From Phaeodactylum tricornutum CCAP 1055/1 (Eukaryota; Bacillariophyta; Bacillariophyceae; Surirellales; Neidiaceae), in NCBI RefSeq assembly GCF_000150955.2, contig NC_011669.1, positions 1,742,993-1,806,992 on the forward strand: 64,000 nucleotides of DNA. Direction: 5' to 3'. The notes beneath the pieces are model-generated. The model saw only the letters and a program-made list of their open reading frames with translations. It had not been told where the DNA came from and did not search any database. Below are positions 11,216-44,392 of the stretch, one piece after another. How positions within the stretch are numbered: position 1 is the first letter of the stretch; every line of letters begins with the position of its first letter. A program made the translations under genes and the position numbers.

Positions 11216-14200
11216 TCATCGTTCATTAATTGCTAACAGTAAATCCTTTTGCAAGGGTCTAATTCTTCCACTCCTCCCTCGTCCTCTCGCGCGCCCGCCC
11301 CTTCCGCCGCGGCCTCGCCCACCTCGTCCTGATGCTGTCAGTCGGTCCGAGCCGTGATAAATTCTAACTCTCGCTTTCAAAACCTCGTCTTCGGGAAAAC
11401 AGCTAGTGTATTTTAATTCACCGTCAGGAAAAGGGGAATCGCCCGCTTTGAAGTCGACCTGCATAAGGTGGACTCCCAATGCTTCGTCTTTTTTGTTAAG
11501 AACGGTGATCTTCTCGATACCTTTGGGCATATAAACGATGATCGGGTCTCTAGTAGACACGAGTCGCCACTTCGGGCCCATGTGGGGGTCAAGAATTAAA
11601 ACACCATCGCTTTCAGGATCTGTACTAACAGTCAACTCCTCAATCGAAGGGTGTTCATCCGGTAATGGGCATTCCAAAACAAGGCGTTTTCCAGCAATGG
11701 AAGTAATCTGTTTTTCTTTCTGTTCGTCTTCCGTGTCCGTAGGATCTTGAGGGAGCTCATCAGCATCTAAAGACCATTTGGAATCGTTGAAGCAGCGTGG
11801 ACACAGAGGAAAAGTGCGCTGTGGGTTACCAACTGAAAAAAGGCACAGCTCAAAATTGCAGTTTTCAACCGAGCAGACTCGTCCTGTCCACTGTTTGACA
11901 ATACCTCCTGAAGGTAAAGGATATACGGTTTCTGTCCATTTGTTGTACAAGCGAGGTGGTGGCCCTTCGATAAATTGCAAGTAGCGACGAGTTAGGCCAC
12001 ATCTGGTAAACGGTTTCCCAACATCTTCAAGTTTGGAAAATGACGTGCTGAACAAGACATCCATTTTGGAGATGTTATTCACAAACGAATCAAACTTGTT
12101 TCTGAACAAATCGATAGCCTTTTGGACAACAATATCCTTGCTCAATAGCCCTTTGGCAATCTTGTTGCACTCGTCTTCTATGTCAGAACGAACGCGAGGA
12201 AGTACAAGCGAGCTGTCTATCTGATGGTAGCCTTGCGCCAAAACAATACCGAGCTTCGATGGTACCAAACGACGGCCTGATTCTAAAGCGACATAATTGC
12301 GCTTTTGAACATTTTCTATGTGTGTCGAAATACTGGCATCCGTACCAATTCCGTTCTTTTCCATCAACGAAATCAACTCGGATTCGGTAAGGTAAGTGGG
12401 TGGCGTTGTCATCTTCTCTTTAATGCCGAGGTTAGCACGAACTGTGGTACCTGGAACAACGGAAACTTTAGATGAATCACCTGGCGACGAACTGGTATTC
12501 GTGAGAGGAATTAGTTCACCATATGCAAACGCTGGAAGGGCCCGCTCTTCCTCGTCTTCATCACCTTCAATATTCTCTTCGCCATATTCTGTATGCAACA
12601 GGACGGCAAGGAAGCCCGGTGAAACAGGCTCTTTGCCTCGAAGAGTAAATACACCTTTCTCTCCCAGAGCTTCGATGGCAAAATCGATCTGCGTTGAACG
12701 CCACACTGCATCTTGGCTGACAGAAGCAATGAAATGACGCACAACTAAATCGTAAACCCGCGCCATGTCCCCGCTTAGTTCACCAGCACGAGTAGCACGG
12801 CATGGGGTGATTGGAGGATGGTCTCCCATATCAATGCCTCCCCGCGACTTGTTTGGACCTTCTCGAAGTAATTCTCTCACATAGCTCCCCCATCGAACGT
12901 CTGATGACTGTTGCTGAAGAGTGCCATAAATATCGAAAGATTTCGGATAGGCCGAAGACTCGGTTCTAGGGTACGAAAGATAGCCACTCAGATAAAGTCG
13001 TTCTGCAGTTTGCAACGTGGCGTGAGGACCAATTCCTAGTGCTTTACTGCAAGCTTTGAGAAGCGCCACTGTATTCAAAGGAATTGGTCGTCCCTGTTTC
13101 TTATCTTTGGCAACGACGCTCGTAACTTTGGCAAAAGGTCCACTTTCCAAGGCCTCAAGTAACAACTTTTCGACCTTGTTCTTGTTGAAAGAACGCCCCG
13201 AGCCCCAGAGAGCTCGCAACGATCGCCCTCGCTTCATGACGGCCAGTTCCAACACCCAGTACGGTTCCGGTTTGAACGTTTGAATGTCAATGTAGCGTTG
13301 CACACAAAAGCCGAGCGTCGGGGTCTGGCAAGGGCCGTAGGAAAGCACTGCACTGTTGAGATCACCATAGCGACCTTGAAAGTATCGAGTTTGGTAGCGC
13401 GAGAAAGCAATGCCTACTTTCAAATCCAATTCCTGTCGGGCATCAACGGAAAGGGCCTGGTTCTTGTCTGGCTTGCCCTATCCAAGCAAAAGAAGAAAAT
13501 ATGTTGAGCTTTGTGCAGAAATAAAATCAAAAATGTCTTGAGGGGAGATATGACCTACCAAAGAGTTGTAGGCTTTTTGAATATCGGACGGATTAATTGC
13601 GGAAAAGTAAGCACGATAAACGCGATCAAAGTTTGAGCTACCACCGCTCTTCATTACATGCATACAACAGTCGAGTACTTCAAAGTTGATGTTTTCACCT
13701 TCCCGGTCGCAGTCCATCCAAAGCACAATGAAATGCACGCCACGGGCTTCATCCTCCAAATGCCGAACTACGGAGGATTTGCAAGGCTTTCGCACAATTG
13801 GCGCCTCAAAGAGTTCGGCCGGATCCACTGAATCCCACGATTGATATTTCTCGGGAAAATCCACGTTAAATACGTGCCCGGCCACCGATGTGATCTTATG
13901 TTGGAAATGTTTTGCGTGTGGAGCCTTGGGAAAGGAAATGCCGTTGGACAGCTCGTACACAGGGAGACTCTTGCTTCGCATACTAGGATTGGATGATTTT
14001 CCTTCCGCTGATGCCAATCCATGTGCAATGGCCTGAGCAATACTAGGTTTTTCCGCTACGTGTAGGATAGTGATGGACTCCCCGCGGCCAAAATTGGGGT
14101 CGCTAGTTTGTTGCGGCTGATTGGGCGGGATCGAAGGGGCAAGGGGTTTGCTGGAGTCGGAGGAAGCTACGGAGGAAGCTCTTCCACCCGTGCGCTTTGC

Positions 14201-14878
14201 ATCAAACTTCTTGCTGGCTGTGACTTTACCATTCTTCTTATTCTTTGCGATGTTGTTTCCAATTTTGTTTCCCACACCATCATACTTTAGTAACTGTTTC
14301 TCCAGCGTCTCGTTCTTTGGCTTGATGCTCTTTTCGTTCGGATTCGATGAGCCTCCTTTGCTTTTCTTTTTCTTGATCGACGATGGCTCTTGTGGTTCCA
14401 CGCCATTTGGTTTGAGAAATTTGGGAGAATTCTTTGCCTTTGCATTCAGCGGCTTGGCTTCTGCTGGATTGATACGTTTTGTCTTCCCATTGGCGTTTTT
14501 GCTTATGGACGTTTGGGGGACTTGACTTTTCTCTTTCGGTTCGAACGGTTTTGCCTCCGCCCGGATGACCGAAACCTCTTTGGTGGCTTTGGAATTTGTA
14601 TCGTTTCGCGATGGAGCAACGGATGAGTTTGACGGTAGCGATGCTTCTTGGTCGCGATTGGGTCGATTGGACTTGCCGGATCGTCCCCGACCCCGACCAC
14701 GTCCTCGTCCACCGTTGCCGGCAGCTGTCCGTCCGCGCTCGCCGTCACGGACGGTTTGAGGACCACGACCTGAGCTTGGGACAATGGGAGCACCGTGGGT
14801 ATCGCTGTCCGTCATGATTACAATAAGTGGTCGGTGTTGGGGTGCCAGTACGAATGGCAGCATAGGTCCAGAATCCAT
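11216..14878 (-). CDS. TOP3B: DNA/RNA topoisomerase III beta-type
   Basis: Type IA topoisomerase that passes single strands of DNA and, in animal TOP3B, also RNA. Exons are 13559-14878 and 11216-13477; the 81-bp intron (13478-13558) restores YNSL-GKPDKNQALSVDARQELDL. From the ATG at 14878 the protein is 1,193 residues; ATGs at 14863 and 14815 are alternatives. The first 250 residues are disordered with an RG-rich run (GGRGRGRGRGR). The TOPRIM domain begins at ITILHVAEKPSIAQAI and contains the metal motif WMDCDREGENI. The catalytic Tyr sits in GYLSYPRTES. FQGRYGDL and SYGPCQTPTLGFCVQRY match TOP3B more than TOP3A. After a Cys-containing C-terminal region, the tail is again RGG-like (GRGGRGRGGRGGRARGRGR). 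Two RG tails suggest RNA binding and arginine methylation (inference). Confidence 0.9.
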
Positions 14879-15250
14879 CACGACAACGAGAAGGAAAAAG
14901 AAACCCTACTCTCTCTAGAGTAGAGTATTACAGCTAGGGCAACAGATTCGGACTGCTCTTTGATATGTGACGCTTACTGTTAATCACATTCATTCCTGGT
15001 GACAGGAAAGGAGAATGTCTCATGACTTTGAAAAGTATGTTATCGAGTCGTATAAGACAGTCGTAGATGAAGGCGAACGATCGGGTTCGAAAGATCGACC
15101 CAACCGACGCAAAAATAGGACTGGACCTGACTATGGCGTGGACTGTTGGGCGTTGTCTCCTCCCGTCTTCTTCGCTGACTGTGAATAAACATTTAGTTTC
15201 TGTGTTGTCCCTCGGTGATCTCTTACGTCTACCTTGTATATTCTAGTGCT
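14879..15250. promoter_or_regulatory. Divergent promoter region TOP3B / RPN5
   Basis: Short region serving both genes. It contains TTACTGTTAA at 14974-14983, a relative of the element seen near several other starts, and a pyrimidine-rich stretch close to each start codon. No RNA gene is visible. Confidence 0.4.
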
Positions 15251-16852
15251 ATGGCTTCCGAAGGCGCTTCTGGTGCCGCTTCGGGCGGCCAGTTGCAAGA
15301 AAAGTTGGACCTGTCGAAGGAAACCGACGCCAAAATAGAACAGGCTCGAACGCTCGTCAACGCGGGACAGTTGCCGGAAGCACTCGCTCTACTATCCGCG
15401 TTGGAAAAACAATGCCGGGTGGGGAACGACAATCCTTCTTTGGTCCGTGTCTGCGAAGAAAGCCTCAAGCTGTGCCGGCAAGTCGGCGACGAAGACGCCA
15501 TGGTCGACACGATCCAAAGCCTGGTGACGCGACGCTCACAAAAGACCTCCGCCGTAAAAGCCCTGGTGCAGACGGCCTTGCCATGGTGCGTCGAAGAACC
15601 CTTCGCACCTTTGCCAGTGTCCACCGATTCCGAAATTGCCTTTCGGGATCGTTTGGTCGTCGTCTTGCGGGACGTTACCGACGGAAAGCTCTTTTTGGAA
15701 CGGGAGCGGGCGCAGTTGACCCGCGCGTTGGCGACCATTAAGGTACGTGTGCAACACCTTGCCGTGAGAGCATACTGATTCGCGATTCTCTCATTGAATC
15801 TAACCGTGTGTTGGTGTCACAATGGTCCGGATTCTTACCCGTTACGGTTGTATTTTAGGAACAACAAGGGGATATTTCTGAAGCCGCCAACGTGTTGCAA
15901 GATGTACACGTTGAAACTTACGGTTCACTTTCCAAAAAGGATAAGATCGAATTTATTCTCGAGCAAATGCGTCTTACGCTGGCCAAGAAAGATTTTGTCC
16001 GGGCTGCCATTGTTGCAGGAAAAGTATCAAAGAAAAATTTGGCGGAAGAGAACATGAAAACGTACAAGGTCCAATTTTATACACTCATGACAATTTACCA
16101 TCGGCACGATAAGAACGCTCTCGATTTGGCCAGAGATTATCATGCTATTTACTTGACTCCGCATATATTGGCGGACGGTGTCAAATGGAGGGAAGCCTTG
16201 CAAGCGACGGTCGTTTTCTTGGCGCTTAGTCCGTACGACAACGAACAGCAAGATATGTTGAATCGGATTGCCCTGGAGGAGAACTTGGAAAAACTTCCGG
16301 CTTGCAAGTGAGTATCGTGCTTTGTGTAAATGACAGTACTGGCTAGTGTAGTGTTCACGAAGTATTCTTGTTGGTTGCCAGTGTCTACTTTCTCATTATA
16401 TTCGTTTGGTTCTGGACAGAAAAACGATTGATCTCTTGCTCAAGAAGGAAATCATTAATTACCCAATGACGCATCAAGCCGAACTCGAAGCGCTACCGGT
16501 ATGTCACGAAGGTGGCGAAGATCTGGCGGCGCACTGGCACGAAGTTTTTCACCGCCGCATTATTCAGCACAATATTCGCGTCGTCTCGGTTTACTACAAA
16601 CGTATTCACGGTGCCCGTCTCGCACAGCTCTTGCAACTGGAGCCCGCTCGGGTCGAAAAGGAAATAGCATCCATGGTCAGCGAAGGCTCGATTTACGCCA
16701 AGATCGATCGCCCCAAAGATATTGTTCGCTTTTCACAACCCAAAACGGCGGAAGCGGTTCTTTCGGACTGGGCTTCGGACATTGATAAGCTGCTTAATTT
16801 GGTCGAAACAACCACACATTTGATTGACAAGGAAAACATGACGAGTTCGTAG
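15251..16852 (+). CDS. RPN5: 26S proteasome regulatory subunit RPN5 (PSMD12)
   Basis: Non-ATPase subunit of the 19S lid, a PCI-domain scaffold of the 26S proteasome. Three exons: 15251-15742, 15859-16307 and 16420-16852, giving 457 residues, close to human PSMD12. Introns are 15743-15858 and 16308-16419, both GT-AG. The ATG at 15251 follows a short leader. The N-terminal half is helical TPR-like (MASEGASGAASGG, then KIEQARTLVNAGQLPEAL). The middle has KTYKVQFYTLMTIYHRH and YLTPHILADGVKWREAL. The C-terminal PCI/winged-helix part contains HNIRVVSVYYKRIHGARLAQLL and VSEGSIYAKIDRPKDIV, and ends in the helix DWASDIDKLLNLVETT. All of this agrees with the RPN5 family. It converges with the F-box gene. 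Confidence 0.95.
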
Positions 16853-16935
16853 TGATCTATTAAGCTTGAAAAGGTTTTACTCCGCCATCACTATGCTAAC
16901 TTTTTCATCACTATCGTTACTCTTTGGTACTGATC

Positions 16936-17925
16936 TCAATCGAACAATTCTACAGTCGGCGGCTGGGTCGCCCTGGTCGTGCCCAGACTCTGCCACCCTT
17001 CTTGATGCCGCTCCAAAATCGAGGATTGACTAGCATAACGACACACGTCTGGCGAGGCATCTCCAATCACCAGGAGTTTCGACCAAAAGGAAAATATCTG
17101 AACTACTTCTCCCGCCACGGCCATACTTTGACTTTGTCGTGCGACACTTTCCTTACTGCAATACCACAGCAACGTCTCGTTTGAGAAGCGCTTGGCGATC
17201 ATACATCGTAATAGTTGCCCCGATTGTGCGACTTCGCTCTCGACATGTGTCGAATCGTATACGGCACCATAACCCGGCGTTTGTTGTCGTTCGACACGTT
17301 GCTCAGCAAATCGAGGTTTGGAAAAGACGAAGCCGTTACCGTTACATCAAGTGCAAAAATATACTCCATTGTACTCGGGATCCCCACAATTGCTCACCTC
17401 TACGCGTCGAGAGAGTAACAGGGTCGGGACACGGACGTGACAATTCGACGGCTGCGTGCATATTCCTTCCAACTGCTCCTGCGCTCGCAATAGCTGCATA
17501 ACATCAATTAGCTGTCGCTGAACAGCAATACTGCGTGTTCGACGCTGTGCACTGCACAGTGCCAAGTCGCGGAATCTCCAGCACGTTCGCTGGAGCCGAA
17601 CGAGAGATTGGCAGTCGAGGAACTCTAGTACTCGTAAAACAAGGTCGTCAGCTGCACCGTACTGAAGAAAGGAAGCGCACTGTCTCGCAAACAAGTCGTT
17701 CAAGTCTGATATTTCATCTTTCTGGTCTTGATTCTGGCTTTGAAAAGTGATACTTTTGTTGTGGACGTGGTGGAGGTTCTCCATGGACTTCAGAAAATCT
17801 CTGTACTCTTGAGTATTTTGGACAGTTTTTACATCTTCCATGCGGAGCGACGAGAGCCAGCGTATACAAGCATCTATCTCTTTTTTCGTTTCGCTGCCTT
17901 GCTGCCATGTGAAAGTATCCCTCAT
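16936..17925 (-). CDS. F-box protein with in-frame TGA (possible selenocysteine or nonsense codon)
   Basis: Likely substrate-recognition subunit of an SCF ubiquitin ligase. From the ATG at 17925 the frame runs 192 codons to a TGA at 17347-17349, then stays open in the same frame for another 136 codons to a TGA at 16936. An F-box lies at about residues 93-122 (DDLVLRVLEFLDCQSLVRLQ, then CWRFRDLAL). The text across the TGA reads EYNGVYFCT-x-CNGNGFVFSKP, and downstream MIAKRFSNETLLWY, VVQIFSFWSKLLVIGDASP and GWQSL look like ordinary conserved coding sequence. The normal residue at x is probably Gly (GGA needs one change from TGA); that is from memory of similar diatom proteins. The neighbouring Cys residues make selenocysteine possible. 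No intron with GT-AG ends removes the TGA without deleting the core. Alternatives are a null allele or a sequencing error. Confidence 0.7.
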
Positions 17926-18506
17926 TTACCTTCTCTAGTAGGCAGAGCCAACAAAAATATTGGTAGCTCCAGAATTTGTCAGGTAGAGGGGAGTCTTCCG
18001 TATGGTTGTCGCAATGTAAATGAAATCTGTTCGAAGTTTTTTACTTGCCGTAATCAGTCCTAATCATTTCTGCATAGTACATTCCCAAGGCCTCGTTCCC
18101 TGGCTACTTTTTGATTTGAGTAGAGAGTTCCCTGTAAACGGATTCTTGCTGTAGTTCATTTACAATAAAGCCTGCAATCCGATCTTTTTCGCCGTCAGTT
18201 TGTCGGTTTCCTCTCGCTAGAATTTCGTGTCCGTGTTTAGGATACCAAGGTAGAATAGGGGTTCGGGGGAGGGTTCACAGTCAGGCAAGGCCGGCAGTGA
18301 AGGACGAAGATGCTGTTATTCTTTGATAGAGTACCCGGACCTTTGTGTAAATGAGCTAACAGTCAATCTAAAGTTTGGCCATAGTCACATTCATATTCTT
18401 GAAAGAAGAGTCTAGAAGAACTTATGTAATGGAAGCTGATGCTGCAGGGTTAGAATTCATAATGATTTCTATTTATTTGACAAGCGGATTTGCCCTTCAT
18501 TTTTGG
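17926..18506. promoter_or_regulatory. Intergenic region upstream of the F-box gene
   Basis: About 580 bases between the F-box start and the methyltransferase stop. The element TAACAGTCAA is at 18357-18366. I see no coding frame I can support and no RNA gene. Confidence 0.4.
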
Positions 18507-35263: not shown

Positions 35264-38200
35264 CTAACTGTAAAAATAAACAGCGGCGACAACCACAACA
35301 ATCGTGACCAAAGTTGAAGGAAATGCTTTTTCAAACGATACGGTCGACGAACTACTCGATCCGTTGCAAACCGATGATCCAAAGTATGTGGAGTCTCTGC
35401 AAGGTTCGCAACTGGTGTTTACGGAAGCACGACCAATTGGAGAAGTGCTTTGGGGAGGACACAAAATGGCGTCACATCCAAACATTTCCACATCACCATT
35501 GTTCCAATTCGCCTGGGTACATAATACTGGAGGGAAGCCCTCGAATTTATTGTCTCTGGCATAAAATGCCAAGTCGGTGAAACGTTTCAGGCCCGATGGA
35601 AGTTCACCCGTCAGGAGGTTGCCCGAGACGTCGAAAAACATCGGGTTTGTAGGATCTGCGGCAGCCAAAATATTTGGTGAGAGTTCACCGATGAACTGAT
35701 TCTCTGATACGTCCAAAGTTTGCATTTTCGGATGGACGTTAAAAGCGGGTAGTGTGCCGGAGAAGTTGTTATCTCCGACACGTAAGCTGATCAGTTTGCG
35801 GTTTTGTTCAAACTTCGGCAAAGTGCCGCTCAACTGATTGCTTTCGCAAAAAAACGACTCTAACCGCGAAAGCTTTCCAAGCTCGGATGGTAACTTCCCA
35901 TCGATTCGGTTGAATCTAACATCGATCTCGCTCAGAGCTGGTGCGCCACCGATGCCGTCAAGAGATGTCAGTCCAGTAGAATCGAGCTGTAAACTCCTTA
36001 ATGTTTTTGCCTTCTCTATCCCCGAGAAACCAACCGTGATCGGGTTCGAATACAACCACAAACTCTCCAACCCAGAAATCTCATAAATTTCTTCAGGGAG
36101 GCTGCCAACAAGGTTGTTCGCTCCCAGAGCAATCGACCCAACCTGAGAACCCTCGTTGCATTCAACGCCATACCATTCGCAGACATCGGTAGAGCTGCTC
36201 CAGCCTTCTTGGTTGTACCATCTGGAACCTCCCATTGTGTCATACATCGACTTCAGGATTCGTGTGGCTTGCTCTTTCTCCAATGCCGAGCAATAAGTAC
36301 TTCCGTAAAAGGTAGAGTTTTCATCCCCTGGGCACTCGTTGCATAGATCGTCTTCCGTCATCTGGCGGCCGTTGACATTGAATGTACCCGGTAGACAGAG
36401 CAATCCCGGACAAGAGAATTTGCCTACAGCCCCATTCATCCACAGCGTTTCGTCACAAAGACCATCTCCGATGCCCTCTATTTTATTATTGGCGAGATCG
36501 ATATTGAAGCGCTCGTATATTCCAAGTTCACTTGGAATCGAGCCAGTCAATAGATTGGAATCGAGGAGGATACGTATAACACCGCTGGGATTCTCAACAC
36601 TATCAAGGAAATTGCTTGGAATTTCACCTGTCAAACTGTTTGATCCAAGGTCAAGATTTCTCAGATTCGGGAAATTTGAAAAAGCTGGCAGAGTGCCACT
36701 CATTCCGGAGGTTGCCCTTTCACGAGCTGAAAGGTAAAGTCCCTCCAGTGATACTAAGCTTTCAAGCGGAGCTAGGGGCCCAAAAAAGTTGTTCTCTGAC
36801 AGTAGAAGGTTGCGAAGAACAGTCAAGCTCGCAATTGAGTCTGGGATGAGTCCGCTCAAATCATTGTGAGAAGCAACAAATGCTTTCAAATTGGATAAGT
36901 TTTCTATGGAAGGCGACAAAGTGCCCGTAAATCCACATTGAGCGATGTCGAGGAATTCCAGCGCGGTCAGCGAGTACAATTCGGTCGGAATCTGCCGGCC
37001 ATTGAATGCCGTATTATCCATTTTGAGAACACGAAGATTTGTGGCTTCGTTTAGGCCTTCGAGGGATATAACGTTCGTGGAATCGATGTAAAGCTCCTTC
37101 AGTGACTTCGAATCTTTGATGTCCCCGAATCCCATGGTAACGCTGTTTCCGCTAAGGTTGAGAACTCGGAGAGAAGGGAGATAGAACATATAAGACGGGA
37201 TAGTTCCGGATAAATTGTTGCCGCTGAGCTCAATTTTGACAACATCATCCTTTCCCTCGGAGTTCGGCTCGCAATCAACACCAAACCATTCGCAGACAGT
37301 AATCCCATTTTGTAACCAATTGTCTGCCTTTTTCCAGTCGTTCCCTCCTGTCCTTTCGAAAAACTCTCTCAAGATTTCTTCCTGGGTAAGTTGCTCAGGT
37401 GAGATGGCGCCACAGCGTGTGCTCCCGTACCAAAGCGCTGAGGCACGGTAGGTGCAAGGTTGGCAGTCTTCAGTCGACGTCCGGCGTCCGATGGTATTAA
37501 AAGTACCCGGTCCACAAAGTAAGGCATCACAGCCGGATTGCAAAAGACCATCCATCCAATCCTTCATTTCGCACACTGAATTCGGGACAGCACTGATCCT
37601 GTTCCCTCCTAAAAGAAGTTGCATCTGGCTGAAATCAGCAAGAACTTCTGGGATTGCACCGTGTACGAGGTTTTGCTGTAAATCAACAATGACTTCGGAG
37701 CTCTTGTCCGAGTGTCCAGATAGGAAAATTGAGGGGATAGTGCCCCCCAAACTATTCGCTGCTAGATAAAGCTCGCGAAGTCGTGGCGCTCGATGAAATG
37801 CTGGGAGACTCCCGACCAACCCAGGTTCACCAGCAAGCTCATCCGGTTGTCTTTCGATGGACAACACTTCAAGAGAAGACAAAAAACTTAGGCTCGAAGG
37901 AATCTAACAGAAAGGTGAGACAACGAAGTTCCTTATGGAATGTAACCTCCCTCCCTGCGAACAAAGGGTCTCTTACCTCGCCCGTCCACTTGTTTCCGCC
38001 GATGGAAAGAACACGCAAACGGGAGATCGAACCAAACATATCTGGTATCGGTCCAGAAAATCCGTTATTGCCGAGGTAGAGCTCCTCCAGACTGGAAAGA
38101 TCACCTATTGACCTGGAGACTTCGCCTGACAAGTTGTTGTGATCAAGGACTAGTCTTTCCAAAGATTCCAACTTAAAAAAATCTTCCGGTAGAGATCCCG

Positions 38201-41200
38201 TCAATCCGAGAGAGGCCAACTCGAGCTCTCTAAGAGATATAGACGAGCCGAGTCCGACTATTGAAGTGATGTTTGTCTGCGACAAGCGCAGTAGTTCTAG
38301 ACTTGAAGCACCTCCCACCGAATCGAAGTCCACGTCAATTTGGTTTTCACTGAGATCCAGTTCAATCAATTGTGTGAGGAGCCATATTCCGGAACCCACT
38401 GTCCCAACCAGATTATTATTGTCCAAGACAATACTTCGAACAAGCTCATTATGATCGCCTCCTAAATAGCAATCCACGCCATACCAGCTGCATACACTAG
38501 CAGTGCTACCCCATCCATCAGCTCGCTTCCATTGTAAACCATACAGGTCGCGGAACAGAGAATTGAGAACATCACGTTCAATATCTGGCCCACACGATGT
38601 TTGTCCAAAAAATTGGGCGTCCGACCTTGTCAGACAGGGCTCGCATCGAAGAGAAGCGGATGCGCGACCTATCCCGTTGAAGGAGCCAGCCCCACACAGA
38701 ATGAAATCACAGGAGTCTCCGGACGGCAAGGCATTCCTCTCATTCCAAGACTTTTCGCAGAGACCTTGTGGAATTCCCTCTATCTTATTGTCTGCAAGAT
38801 CAAGAGTCATTTTGTCGAATCTAGCAAGCTCGAGGGGGAGTGTACCATTGAGTCTGTTGGAATGCAGGTCGATACGGACTTCTTGAGACAAACTAACATT
38901 TTGCAGAAAATTGCTCGGAATTGCTCCTGAGAGCTGATTTTTATGAATATGGAGATCTGTCAAGTTCAGGCTTTTTTGAAATGACAGTATCGGTCCAGTC
39001 AATCCGTTGCTGATGGAGGAGATTTGCTCTGAGAGACTAAGGTACTTCAGTGACAGCAAGGATTCTAGCTCCAGCGGAAGAGGCCCCGAAAAGGAATTTC
39101 TGGAAAGGTTCAGGTACTCCAATTTTTTGAGCGACACAACTGAAGTAGGGAGCGTTCCTTTTAAGCCGCATTCAACACAAGCAAAGACTTCTAGATCTGA
39201 CAATTCTGCTAGCGCTGCAGGCAAAGCACCTCCAATATCATTCTCAGATAGGTACAGTATTTGAAGACTTTTGAGAGCGGTAATTTCAGTCGGCCATACA
39301 CCACCCAATTCGTTGCCGACTAAATGCAACAATTTGAGACTGGAAGCCTTTTCAATTCCACTCAACGAGCTCAATCCAGTATAGTCGAGATTGATATACG
39401 ATAGGCTTCGCGTCTCACTGATCCCTGTAAAGCTTATTTCAATTCCGTTCGATGCGAAATTAATCTCCTGCAACCGCGGCAGACTGTACACTGACGTCGG
39501 AATTTTTCCCTGAAGTCCGTTCTGCATCAGGTCAATACTCTTTACAAAGCCATCGCTATCACACTCAATACCGTACCAGGAGCAAAACTCTATATCGGAA
39601 TTCATCCAGTTGTCATTTAATTTCCAGTTGTCTCCGTCGGCCTCGGTGTACAATTGCTCAAGTACATCTCTCTGCCCTAAAAGAAGCTGGTCATCTGCAT
39701 CATCGCACATAACACTTCCATAATAAGGTGCCGACGATCCTTCTGGGCACGTCTCACATACGGACGAGGCATCTTCCTGCCTACCAAACAGGCTAAACGT
39801 GTTGGGTGGACATAGAATCGCATCACATGCATACAAGTCAACCGTGCCTTTCATCCAGTTATTCTGCCGACAGACACCATCAGGAATATCATTTATCATG
39901 TTGCTTGAGAGGTATAACGACATGTTTTCAAATCGGGCAAGCGAAGCAGGAATTGCGCCCGTCAGTCTGGTGAGACATAATGCTGTGTGAGATCAGTTCA
40001 TAAAGTATTATATTGATCAACGAGTTGTAAGTCTCACCTGTTCATCGCGAGATCTACTTCAATACTTGATTTTTCTTGATTGCTATCGAGAAAATTTTGA
40101 GGAATGGAGCCGGTCAGGCTATTTCTGCTGAGATATAATTGCTTTAAGTTTGACAGCCGATCAAAAGATATCAAAGGCCCTGTCAAGCCTCTCCCGGCGT
40201 CTGCGCTAGTTCCGATAATCGCATCAATGTCATTATTTCCTTTTCCATTTTCTCTTTGAATGGCAAAGAGCTCGAGGGATAAGAGGTTGTTCAGTTCGGG
40301 CGGTATGGAACCCTCAAAATTGTTATCTGATAAAGCCAATCTCTTCAGACTAGAAAGAGAACCAATGCTGGCGGGGAGCTGACCAGAAAACCTATTATTG
40401 AGTAGAAAGAGGTCCTCAAGGTTATTCATCAACGAAATCTCAATCGGCAAAGGCCCTTCAATCGCGTTAAAATTTAAAAAGAGTTGCCGTAAGTTTGATA
40501 ATTGCAGAATCTCTGGCGGAAAGGGCCCGGTCAGGTCATTGTCCGTCAGACGAAGCTCACTCAAACTAGAAGACTGGCCAACTCCAGAAACAGAATCAAG
40601 GTTTGTGCTTGACAAGTCAAGACTCCGGAGATTTGTTGCTTTGGCGATACCGTTGAAAGAAAACAATACAGCATTTTGCTGAAAATTGAGTGCTTCCAGC
40701 GAAGTGATATTATAAATTGAACGAGAAGGAGTTCCTGTGAGGCCATTGTTCTCCAAATTGATCTTAACAACCTCACCGACTGCATTACATGTCACTCCAA
40801 ACCAAGAACAGAAATCGGTCGTAGAAGTCCATCCACTATTATTCAACCAGCTGTCTCCATGAGTTGAAAAGTAAAGGTCTTGAAGAATGATCAAAGTTTC
40901 TGCTTCATCTCCCAACGAGTCGTTGCCTCCACATTTCGTCACCCCCATTACTTGAGCCTGAGCACAAGGAGAACATATAGACTCCGAAAAAGTCTGCCGC
41001 CCGAAACCATTGAACGACCCAATAGGGCAAAGAATTGCGTTACAGCCATAAGTTCCAACGAGCCCATCGTTCCAGTTTTGCTGGTCGCAGATCCCATCGT
41101 CAAGACTCGTAATACGATTTCCAGCTAGATCCAACACCAAGTTACCAAAGCGACTGGCCCAGCTCAAAGGAACCGATCCTTCGAATGCGTTGCCGCTGAG

Positions 41201-43258
41201 AAGTACTTCTATGCGGTCGTTGCCTCGCTTAGTTGCTTGTAGAAATTCGACAGGCAAACTTCCCGTCAAAAAGTTTCCTCCCAACTGTAAACTTGTCAAC
41301 TGCTCAAGCCCGGAAAACGAGGGCAATGTACCTGTAAGGTCGCCGACACTCGCGGTCTGACGGATTGACAAGATTTGCAGGAGCGAGAGATTGCCAAGCG
41401 AGGTGGGAAGCTCTCCCGAAAATGAATTTTCAGCTGCAGCAATTTCGATGAGATCCGACAGACTTCCAAGCTCTGTCGGCAACGCTCCGGTCAACGAGTT
41501 GCCGGAGATCTTGAGACGTTTCAAGTTTGTTAGGAGTCCAATACTCGAAGATAGAATACCGCTAAACTTATTGTGCGAAAGATCGAGGTCTTCCAGCACC
41601 TTCATCTGAAAAAGACTTTCCGGTACAGCGCCTTCAAGCTGATTCGACGCCAATGACAATCTTCGAATGTTTGATGAAACGATACTTCCAATGTTGTCCA
41701 AAGAAGTCAAATCCGATTGGGTCAAGACAAGTTCCTCCAATTTGGTCGCGTTTTCAATTCCTTCGAACCGAAAGTTGATTGAGTTTGCGCTCAGGTCGAG
41801 AATCCGCAGCTCTGGGAGTCGAAAAAGAGAAGGATAGCTACCAGAATCCGTCATATCATTGTTCCGGAGTCGAATTGCCGAAATATGTCCGTCCGTGGTA
41901 CACTCAATGCCAAACCACGAGCATGGCGAGAGAGCTGGGTTTAACCAATTGTCTGAATTCTTCCAAAAACGCCCACCCATTTTTTCGTAAAACTCCGTCA
42001 TGATGGCACGTTCTTCGTCGGAGCCCACAACCGTAGTCGGACAAGTCGTCGTCCCCCAGTACTGTGCTCCGGGACAAGGGGTGCATGGTCTCGACTGCGT
42101 CGCTCGACCGAACGATGCCCTTTGACCGTTTGGGCACAAAAACGCGTCGCATCCTTGCAAAGCGACTGTTCCGCTCATCCAGTCCGGGGGTATAAAATTG
42201 CAGAAGGAAGAGGACAGCGTTATGCTGTTGTCAGCCAAATAGAGATTCATGCGTTGCTTTATCAAAAGAGAGGGAGGAACAGCGCCAGTGAGGGCGTTAC
42301 TGAACAAGTCTACTTTGATTGTTTCAAATGGCGACGCAGACGCCAGAAAGTTTTCGGGAATGGTCCCACTCAGCTGATGGTTCTGCAAATACAATTCTTT
42401 GATTTTAGACAGGCTCGAGAAAGCTGGCAGGCTCCCTGACAAGCCTGGTCCCTTTTCACTTCCAAAGACGCGATGAAGCGCAAAACTTTCCAGTTCCGTA
42501 CACCTGTCCAACTCGACTGGAATTTCACCGCCGAGCGCGTTCTGAGCTAAATTCAACGTCTGCAAATGAATAAGATTACCAAGAGTAGATGGAATTGCGC
42601 CAGTCAAATCGTTTTCGTAGAGGAGCAACTCCTGCAATCCCGTCAAGTCTCCAATTGCTTGAGGCAGAGTACCCGTAAAGTGGTTGAAATTCGCAAGGAG
42701 TGATCGCAAATTTGTCAATCGCAACAGCTCCTCCGGAAGAGGCCCACGCAAACCAAGATTAGTTAGGTGCAAAACCTCCAAGCTTATCGCTGCCGAAATG
42801 CCGTCCAATGCCTTGACGTTCGTTTTGCTTAAAACAAGAGTTTGGAGGAACTGAGCGTTCGCAATCCCATCGAATTCAATAGTCAAATCAGTATTCGCGT
42901 CCAAAACCAGACTTTCTAAATAGGGAAGCTCGAAGGTCACCGCAGGTAGAGATCCTACCAGATGATTGTAAGACAAATCGATCTTCTGCACATGTCCCAA
43001 ACGACGTTGATCTGGATGGGTTCCGTTGTAGCAAGTGATGCCGTAAAATTCACAGATATTCGACGCTTCCAGCCAATTGTCGCGATGTGTCCAACTCAGC
43101 CCCGATGTGCTACCAAATACTCGATCCAAGATTTGCTTACTTTGAAGCATCGCAGCTTCTTCCTGAGCGTGAGCGCCATTGAGAACGAAACAAATGACTA
43201 CAAACAAAGTTCTCCAGAGAAAAAGCGGTCGGTACCAACTATCGCAACGTCGGGGCAT
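35264..43258 (-). CDS. Giant secreted, surface-anchored leucine-rich-repeat protein (seven modules)
   Basis: Three exons: 40038-43258, 37977-39966 and 35264-37903, with GT-AG introns 39967-40037 and 37904-37976; 2,616 residues. The ATG at 43258 gives a signal peptide (MPRRCDSWYRPLFLWRTLF, then VVICFVLNGAHAQ); earlier ATGs at 43348 and 43312 only add a poor leader. The mature part repeats one plan seven times: a Trp-rich cap (W-x-DNW, C-x-W[FY]G[IV]-x-C), about ten plant-type LRRs (L-x-x-N-x-L-x-G-x-[IL]-P), then a Cys-rich end (ILCP-x-GSFN-x-x-GR, C-x-x-C, YG-x-x-x-C). An eighth Cys cap closes the array before a Ser run and a hydrophobic tail (STLVTIVVVVAAVYFYS) with no cytosolic domain, so a GPI anchor or short membrane anchor is likely. 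No kinase is present. Likely a cell-surface adhesion or recognition protein; function is inference. Confidence 0.88.
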
Positions 43259-44392
43259 TTCTACGGCTACAGCATTTAAATGGTTTTGGTCGTAACATAG
43301 GGGTGGCGGCATGCTTAGCTTCTTTAATGAGGTGCAGCATGCATCCATCGAAGAAGTTTGTTTACCGTTCTGGTCGGTCAATCCGGTTTGCGAAGTTTAC
43401 CCGGCAATCTTCGCTTGTTTTTCGAAGTCGTGATTTTCGTTTTGCGGTCGTGTACAAGAGGTACGGGTATGAGGAATGCGATTTGTTACGGGAATGACTT
43501 ACGCAGCATCCTCACTTGTTGCCATACTCCATGTGGATGAAGCGTTTAGAAAGTGCGAATGAATCGTGTGACGGACCAGCGATATCGCGCAATAACACTT
43601 TATATATTGGACCGTTTTAGCAACTTTCGACTCCGTTGAGATATTTTTATTGTAGTTGTGCGCGCATGGCGGGAGCTTTCACATGTTTCTTGTTTTAAGT
43701 CCTGTCACGAATACTCAAGGATTTGATTGTATACAACTGAAAAATGCTGCGATTAACTGGATGAATCCGACGGCGAAAAAGAAGCACACATCGGATGCAT
43801 TCGCATACCTCACATGCGGAACCACCTAGCTCAACCACCTAGCTCAACCAAGGATTTGCATACAAGACCTTGGCATCCATAGGAGCTGAAGATAGGCATT
43901 TACCATTGCTCTCCCTGTGCCGCATTCCGATTACCATTCCCGGGGATGGCTAGTACGCACCCCTTTTCGTGAATGAGACCCACATCCACGACTCTTTCGA
44001 ACCAAGTTTCAGAAACGTTGCTTCAGGCCATTGCTTGAGGCCTTCGGGGATTCAAAAAGCAATGCCAAGCCGGCAACACCAATGAACAGATTGTTTAAAT
44101 AACCACAGTTGCATTGACGGCTCAAAACAATACTTACACAATGCAAATTGATAGATGGAAAGCCTATAGCACAAAAGGTCGCACATGCACGAAATATCGC
44201 TAGTTCCTGGAAGCGTCATAGCATTGTAAATTTCTTTATCTTGCTGTAACTGTAAGTTATGTGCTGTCGTCAATAACCAATAGCAATGAGGACATAGTTT
44301 TATGTTGTCTAATGATGTGGGTGAGTCTGCGGAAATCGTGGTTTATGGCATCGAAGACGCATTCCAACTTAAAAGTCGTTACACTCTTACAA
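43259..44392. other. Intergenic region between LRR gene and NOP16
   Basis: 1.1 kb without a supportable gene. It must hold the LRR promoter and NOP16 3' sequences. A short tandem duplication of CCACCTAGCTCAA lies at about 43,822-43,848. Confidence 0.4.

Follow-up and report, generated by a model that had tools for sequence, protein, structure and literature searches.

The described systems closest to an open frame interrupted by a single TGA in Phaeodactylum tricornutum are the selenoproteins of diatoms and the nonsense alleles that segregate in this species. Published counts give diatoms 20–44 selenoprotein genes (PMC7539508, whose main text does not name Phaeodactylum) and T. pseudonana 16 in an earlier count (PMC2375036); SELO of P. 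tricornutum is described as containing selenocysteine (Sec) (PMC3281104). For nonsense alleles, PMC10833087 enters 1898 nonsense SNPs from nine accessions in its site-frequency spectrum, reports 31,536 loss-of-function mutations, 588 of them common to accessions, and finds the SNPs in Pt1 to be more than 95% heterozygous. Because nonsense SNPs are abundant and selenoprotein genes few, a single in-frame TGA is more likely to stem from a nonsense allele.

The window (the whole 64,000-nt stretch of P. tricornutum DNA that was analyzed) contains one such frame on its minus strand (Table 1). A sequence-only reading had described it as an F-box protein with an in-frame TGA and a continuing frame of 136 codons. 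The TGA is indeed in frame with the start codon, the downstream run measures exactly the length claimed, and both quoted peptides (CNGNGFVFSKP and MIAKRFSNETLLWY) are present in it. Cys residues stand on both sides of the TGA (C-x-U-C if the codon is read as Sec), and Gly, which the sequence-only reading had expected at this position, would be a plausible residue there. When the frame is read through the TGA, no second stop or other disabling change is found in its 328 codons. A single disabling change over this length fits a nonsense allele or a young pseudogene; the lack of a second one is compatible with a decoded TGA as well. The 3′ end of the gene faces that of a convergent neighbor, which we take from its sequence to be an RPN5-like proteasome gene and which, on our reading, has two introns of 116 and 112 nt. 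Elsewhere in the window, positions 35264–43396 of the minus strand hold a run of very long frames that look leucine-rich-repeat-like by eye.

Table 1. Layout of the interrupted F-box gene and the adjoining gap, in window coordinates
Feature	Positions	Strand	Basis
Upstream frame, 192 codons from ATG 17925	17350..17925	minus	ORF reading and Pfam
In-frame TGA, probably an ordinary premature stop	17347..17349	minus	Sequence, SECIS-like search, broken-frame survey
Downstream frame, 136 codons, weakly coding-like	16939..17346	minus	ORF reading, codon usage
Terminal TGA closing the downstream frame	16936..16938	minus	ORF reading
Gap of 83 nt before the convergent neighbor's stop codon, with no SECIS-like candidate	16853..16935	minus	SECIS-like search	

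The assignment to the F-box proteins was borne out by Pfam, with residues 93–123 of the upstream frame (17557–17649) exceeding the cut-offs of both PF12937 (E = 1.6e-5; 25.0 bits, cut-off 24.3) and PF00646 (E = 2.6e-5; 24.4 bits, cut-off 20.5). In the read-through protein, the PF12937 score drops to 22.4 bits, slightly under the cut-off. The downstream 136 codons matched no Pfam family at E≤1, and the read-through protein matched no solved structure at E≤1; modeling the structure from this one sequence, with no relatives included, gave a poor result (mean pLDDT 40.6). The Pfam search of the gene also returned a weak match to DUF7895 (E = 0.26), a lead that pointed to two places in the genome, both under the cut-off, the one examined being unrelated. 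Searches of the organism's own genome (27,450,724 bases in 88 contigs, with the best candidates alone scored) reported no second copy or relative of the gene. A motif pattern occurred there in four places: once in the F-box gene, once in an FG-repeat-like protein and twice in frames with many stops. No homologue was found in the viral contigs searched or in the prokaryote contigs, where two pattern matches fell in stop-filled frames without a tblastn match. The gene is not mentioned in the portions at hand of PMC7539508, PMC3281104, PMC7678280, PMC2375036, PMC10833087 and PMC6254913.

The sequence-only reading had also assumed that the host possesses selenoprotein machinery, which was checked through tRNA-Sec, SepSecS and a set of control selenoprotein loci. 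Two tRNA-Sec genes with a UCA anticodon were found (C21:401878-401963 and C9:702978-703065), scoring 78.7 and 66.5 bits against an Rfam gathering score of 47. SepSecS is present as an intact-looking copy (C5:919039-920423); a second SepSecS-like copy, about 4.5 kb from it (C5:914004-914586), is apparently broken, with an in-frame TGA and pieces in other frames. Searches of the genome with four families yielded seven selenoprotein loci whose TGA occupies a familiar Sec site. They comprise two of the three GPx matches, the SelT-like member (context C-N-G-U) of the three Rdx matches, both SelM matches (C88:22705-22902 and C8:7530-7727) and two SelO genes with the TGA near the C terminus. The two SelM copies are near-identical and lie on different contigs, with five differences in the first 300 nt past the stop; they may stem from a recent duplication or from an allelic contig. 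With tRNA-Sec, SepSecS and selenoprotein loci all present, the machinery premise holds, and P. tricornutum is very likely able to decode TGA as selenocysteine. The control loci also form, as a by-product, a reference set from the same genome.

These loci served as controls for a SECIS search past the gene, which the sequence-only reading had proposed as a check on Sec. The detector was home-made. It requires a core of TGA and GA, a hairpin with eight or more pairs, a limited span, AA or CC left unpaired in the apical loop and a helix below the core; it is unspecific and was tightened after three looser versions. Within 500 nt past the stop, all seven controls gave a candidate, with best scores of −17.2, −22.6, −23.6, −9.6, −13.7, −17.6 and −10.4. 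Four of these, belonging to two GPx loci, SelT and one of the SelO genes, have the appearance of clear SECIS elements and sit 44–177 nt past their stops. One SelM copy probably owes its −17.6 to chance, given that no such element occurs in the other, near-identical copy. For the F-box gene, this detector found no candidate in the first 461 nt past the stop, including the interval occupied by the clear control elements. Extension to 530 nt disclosed one that the 500-nt cut had hidden, at 462–503 nt and −9.3, within the coding region of the neighbor. This value is below the best of all seven controls, the weakest of which (−9.6) is ahead by just 0.3. Background pieces gave a candidate in 88 of 300 cases in the 500-nt set, 43 of them at −12 or better, and in 176 of 500 in the 530-nt set, where 149 of the 500 reached −9.3 or better and 117 reached −12 or better. 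The rate at −12 or better differed from one background sample to the other. The candidate of the F-box gene is thus at background level. Of the proposed check, then, the nearer 461 nt came back empty and the remainder held one background-like hairpin; the SECIS test leans against Sec in this gene without settling the matter.

The looser detector versions bear on how this result is read. Version 1, run without controls and without the AA/CC requirement, returned a large number of hairpins from 13000 to 16980, including one of −17.6 at 16507 and one of −17.0 at 16736, and was set aside as unspecific. Version 2 gave one match for the F-box gene, starting at its own stop codon, at −1.0. Version 3 gave a match of −30.7 with an 81-nt span within the neighboring gene, better than every control. 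This match was rejected, in a judgment made after the result was seen, because its AA lies in an internal loop, long spans favor low energies and matches likewise arose in 34 of 150 background pieces. Versions 1 and 3 thus both placed stronger hairpins in the neighbor's coding region than the final candidate. Rfam gave no match anywhere in the window at gathering scores and no SECIS at 15000–18000 with E≤10; since it also found no SECIS when run on five of the seven control loci (all but the two SelO loci), it was not used as SECIS evidence.

Open frame length and codon usage were considered as signs of coding. An open run of 136 codons in one given frame would arise by chance with a probability of about 0.004 from the stop frequency of wrong frames, or 0.0007 from base composition. 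The downstream stretch has the highest codon usage score of its six frames (+0.018; the others range from −0.05 to −0.15), a value that 8 of 380 wrong-frame chunks attain and that exceeds just 3 of 76 true-frame chunks. The upstream stretch, which contains the F-box, scores −0.005, with one antisense frame higher at +0.009; 16 of 380 wrong-frame chunks reach this score, and all 76 true-frame chunks equal or exceed it. Codon usage weakly backs coding of the downstream stretch, and it decides little, since the F-box-bearing stretch scores worse.

The frequency of comparable broken frames was surveyed in 264 kb, comprising the window and 200 kb of the same contig, with at least 100 open codons demanded on each side of the stop. 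Single stops split 53 such frames (17 TGA, 16 TAA and 20 TAG). Twelve of the 53, the F-box gene included, are coding-like by all four scores (3 TGA, 5 TAA and 4 TAG), a criterion picked after the table was seen and resting on a codon model trained on the same sequence. TGA is not enriched among these broken frames, and such a case alone therefore does not call for recoding. Many of the split frames are probably introns with an in-frame stop. At window position 13478, a TAG separates same-frame halves of 475 and 753 codons in an apparent topoisomerase III gene; this TAG, too, probably lies in an intron with an in-frame stop.

The suggestion of the sequence-only reading that the TGA encodes selenocysteine, in a new F-box selenoprotein with a C-x-U-C motif and a SECIS in its 3′ UTR, thus draws on a host with two UCA tRNA-Sec genes, SepSecS and GPx, SelT, SelM and SelO loci, on the flanking Cys residues, on the open frame past the TGA and on the weak hairpin at 462–503 nt. 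Against it stand the background level of that hairpin (149 of 500 pieces are as good) and its position inside the neighbor's coding region, the empty interval at 44–177 nt and a TGA count no higher than those of TAA and TAG among broken frames. Furthermore, no Cys- or Sec-bearing homologue was found in the organism's own genome or in the viral and prokaryote contigs searched, and F-box proteins are not known to be redox enzymes. Sec decoding of this kind is accordingly considered very unlikely, and the particular form in which a Sec beside Cys (C-x-U-C) would be served by an unusual or distant SECIS is given a still smaller chance. Were Sec nevertheless true, we would know of no earlier F-box selenoprotein, and the supply of selenium would be linked to protein degradation in diatoms.

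Two further explanations do without selenium. The TGA could lie within an intron and be spliced out: with GTGAGC at 17397 as donor and TTCAG, ending at 17098, as acceptor, a 300-nt in-frame intron would be removed and a protein of 229 amino acids left, and introns with in-frame stops probably account for the frequency of split frames noted above. Such an intron would, however, remove 100 open codons although the frame looks coding-like on both sides of the TGA (+0.031 and +0.036, each over 60 codons), and it would be far longer than the 116- and 112-nt introns of the RPN5-like neighbor. Shorter introns, among the 25 of 98 in-frame combinations listed, with ad hoc splice scores, use AAG or GAG acceptors. 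Splicing is therefore judged improbable. Programmed readthrough by a near-cognate tRNA, giving a longer isoform, would likewise make use of the 136 open codons. CTA and CARYYA are strong readthrough contexts; here, the TGA is followed directly on the minus strand by TGTAAC, which is neither, and readthrough appears the most remote of the explanations considered.

The evidence is best explained by an ordinary premature stop, be it a nonsense allele, a young pseudogene or a base error, to which we assign a probability of roughly 0.78. Nonsense allele or error had been the alternative offered by the sequence-only reading, and it is the part of that reading that fits best. The stop may have entered the reference as a nonsense allele, heterozygous or fixed; the gene may instead be a very young pseudogene, or the base may be an assembly error. 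An F-box is the contact to the SCF adaptor. If the interrupted allele is translated, the resulting 192-residue protein would keep this domain and lose the C-terminal part, which would be the one that chooses the substrate; alternatively, the transcript might be removed by nonsense-mediated decay. If the stop is an allele, intact copies would be expected on the second haplotype or among further strains. An ordinary stop at this position carries a warning for annotation: an open frame continuing past a TGA is insufficient for calling Sec, even with Cys nearby and in a host that makes selenoproteins.

Compared with known systems, the upstream frame shares its F-box with the F-box proteins of PF00646 and PF12937, while the C-terminal part of this gene lies outside any Pfam family (E≤1). 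With the diatom selenoproteins GPx, SelT, SelM and SelO, the gene shares an in-frame TGA in the same genome and, with SelT, a Cys near that TGA (C-N-G-U). In contrast to the F-box gene, the control selenoproteins carry the TGA in familiar Sec contexts, and four of the seven have a clear SECIS-like element close past the stop. The segregating nonsense alleles of P. tricornutum likewise present one premature stop in an otherwise open frame and are abundant across 17 accessions (PMC10833087).
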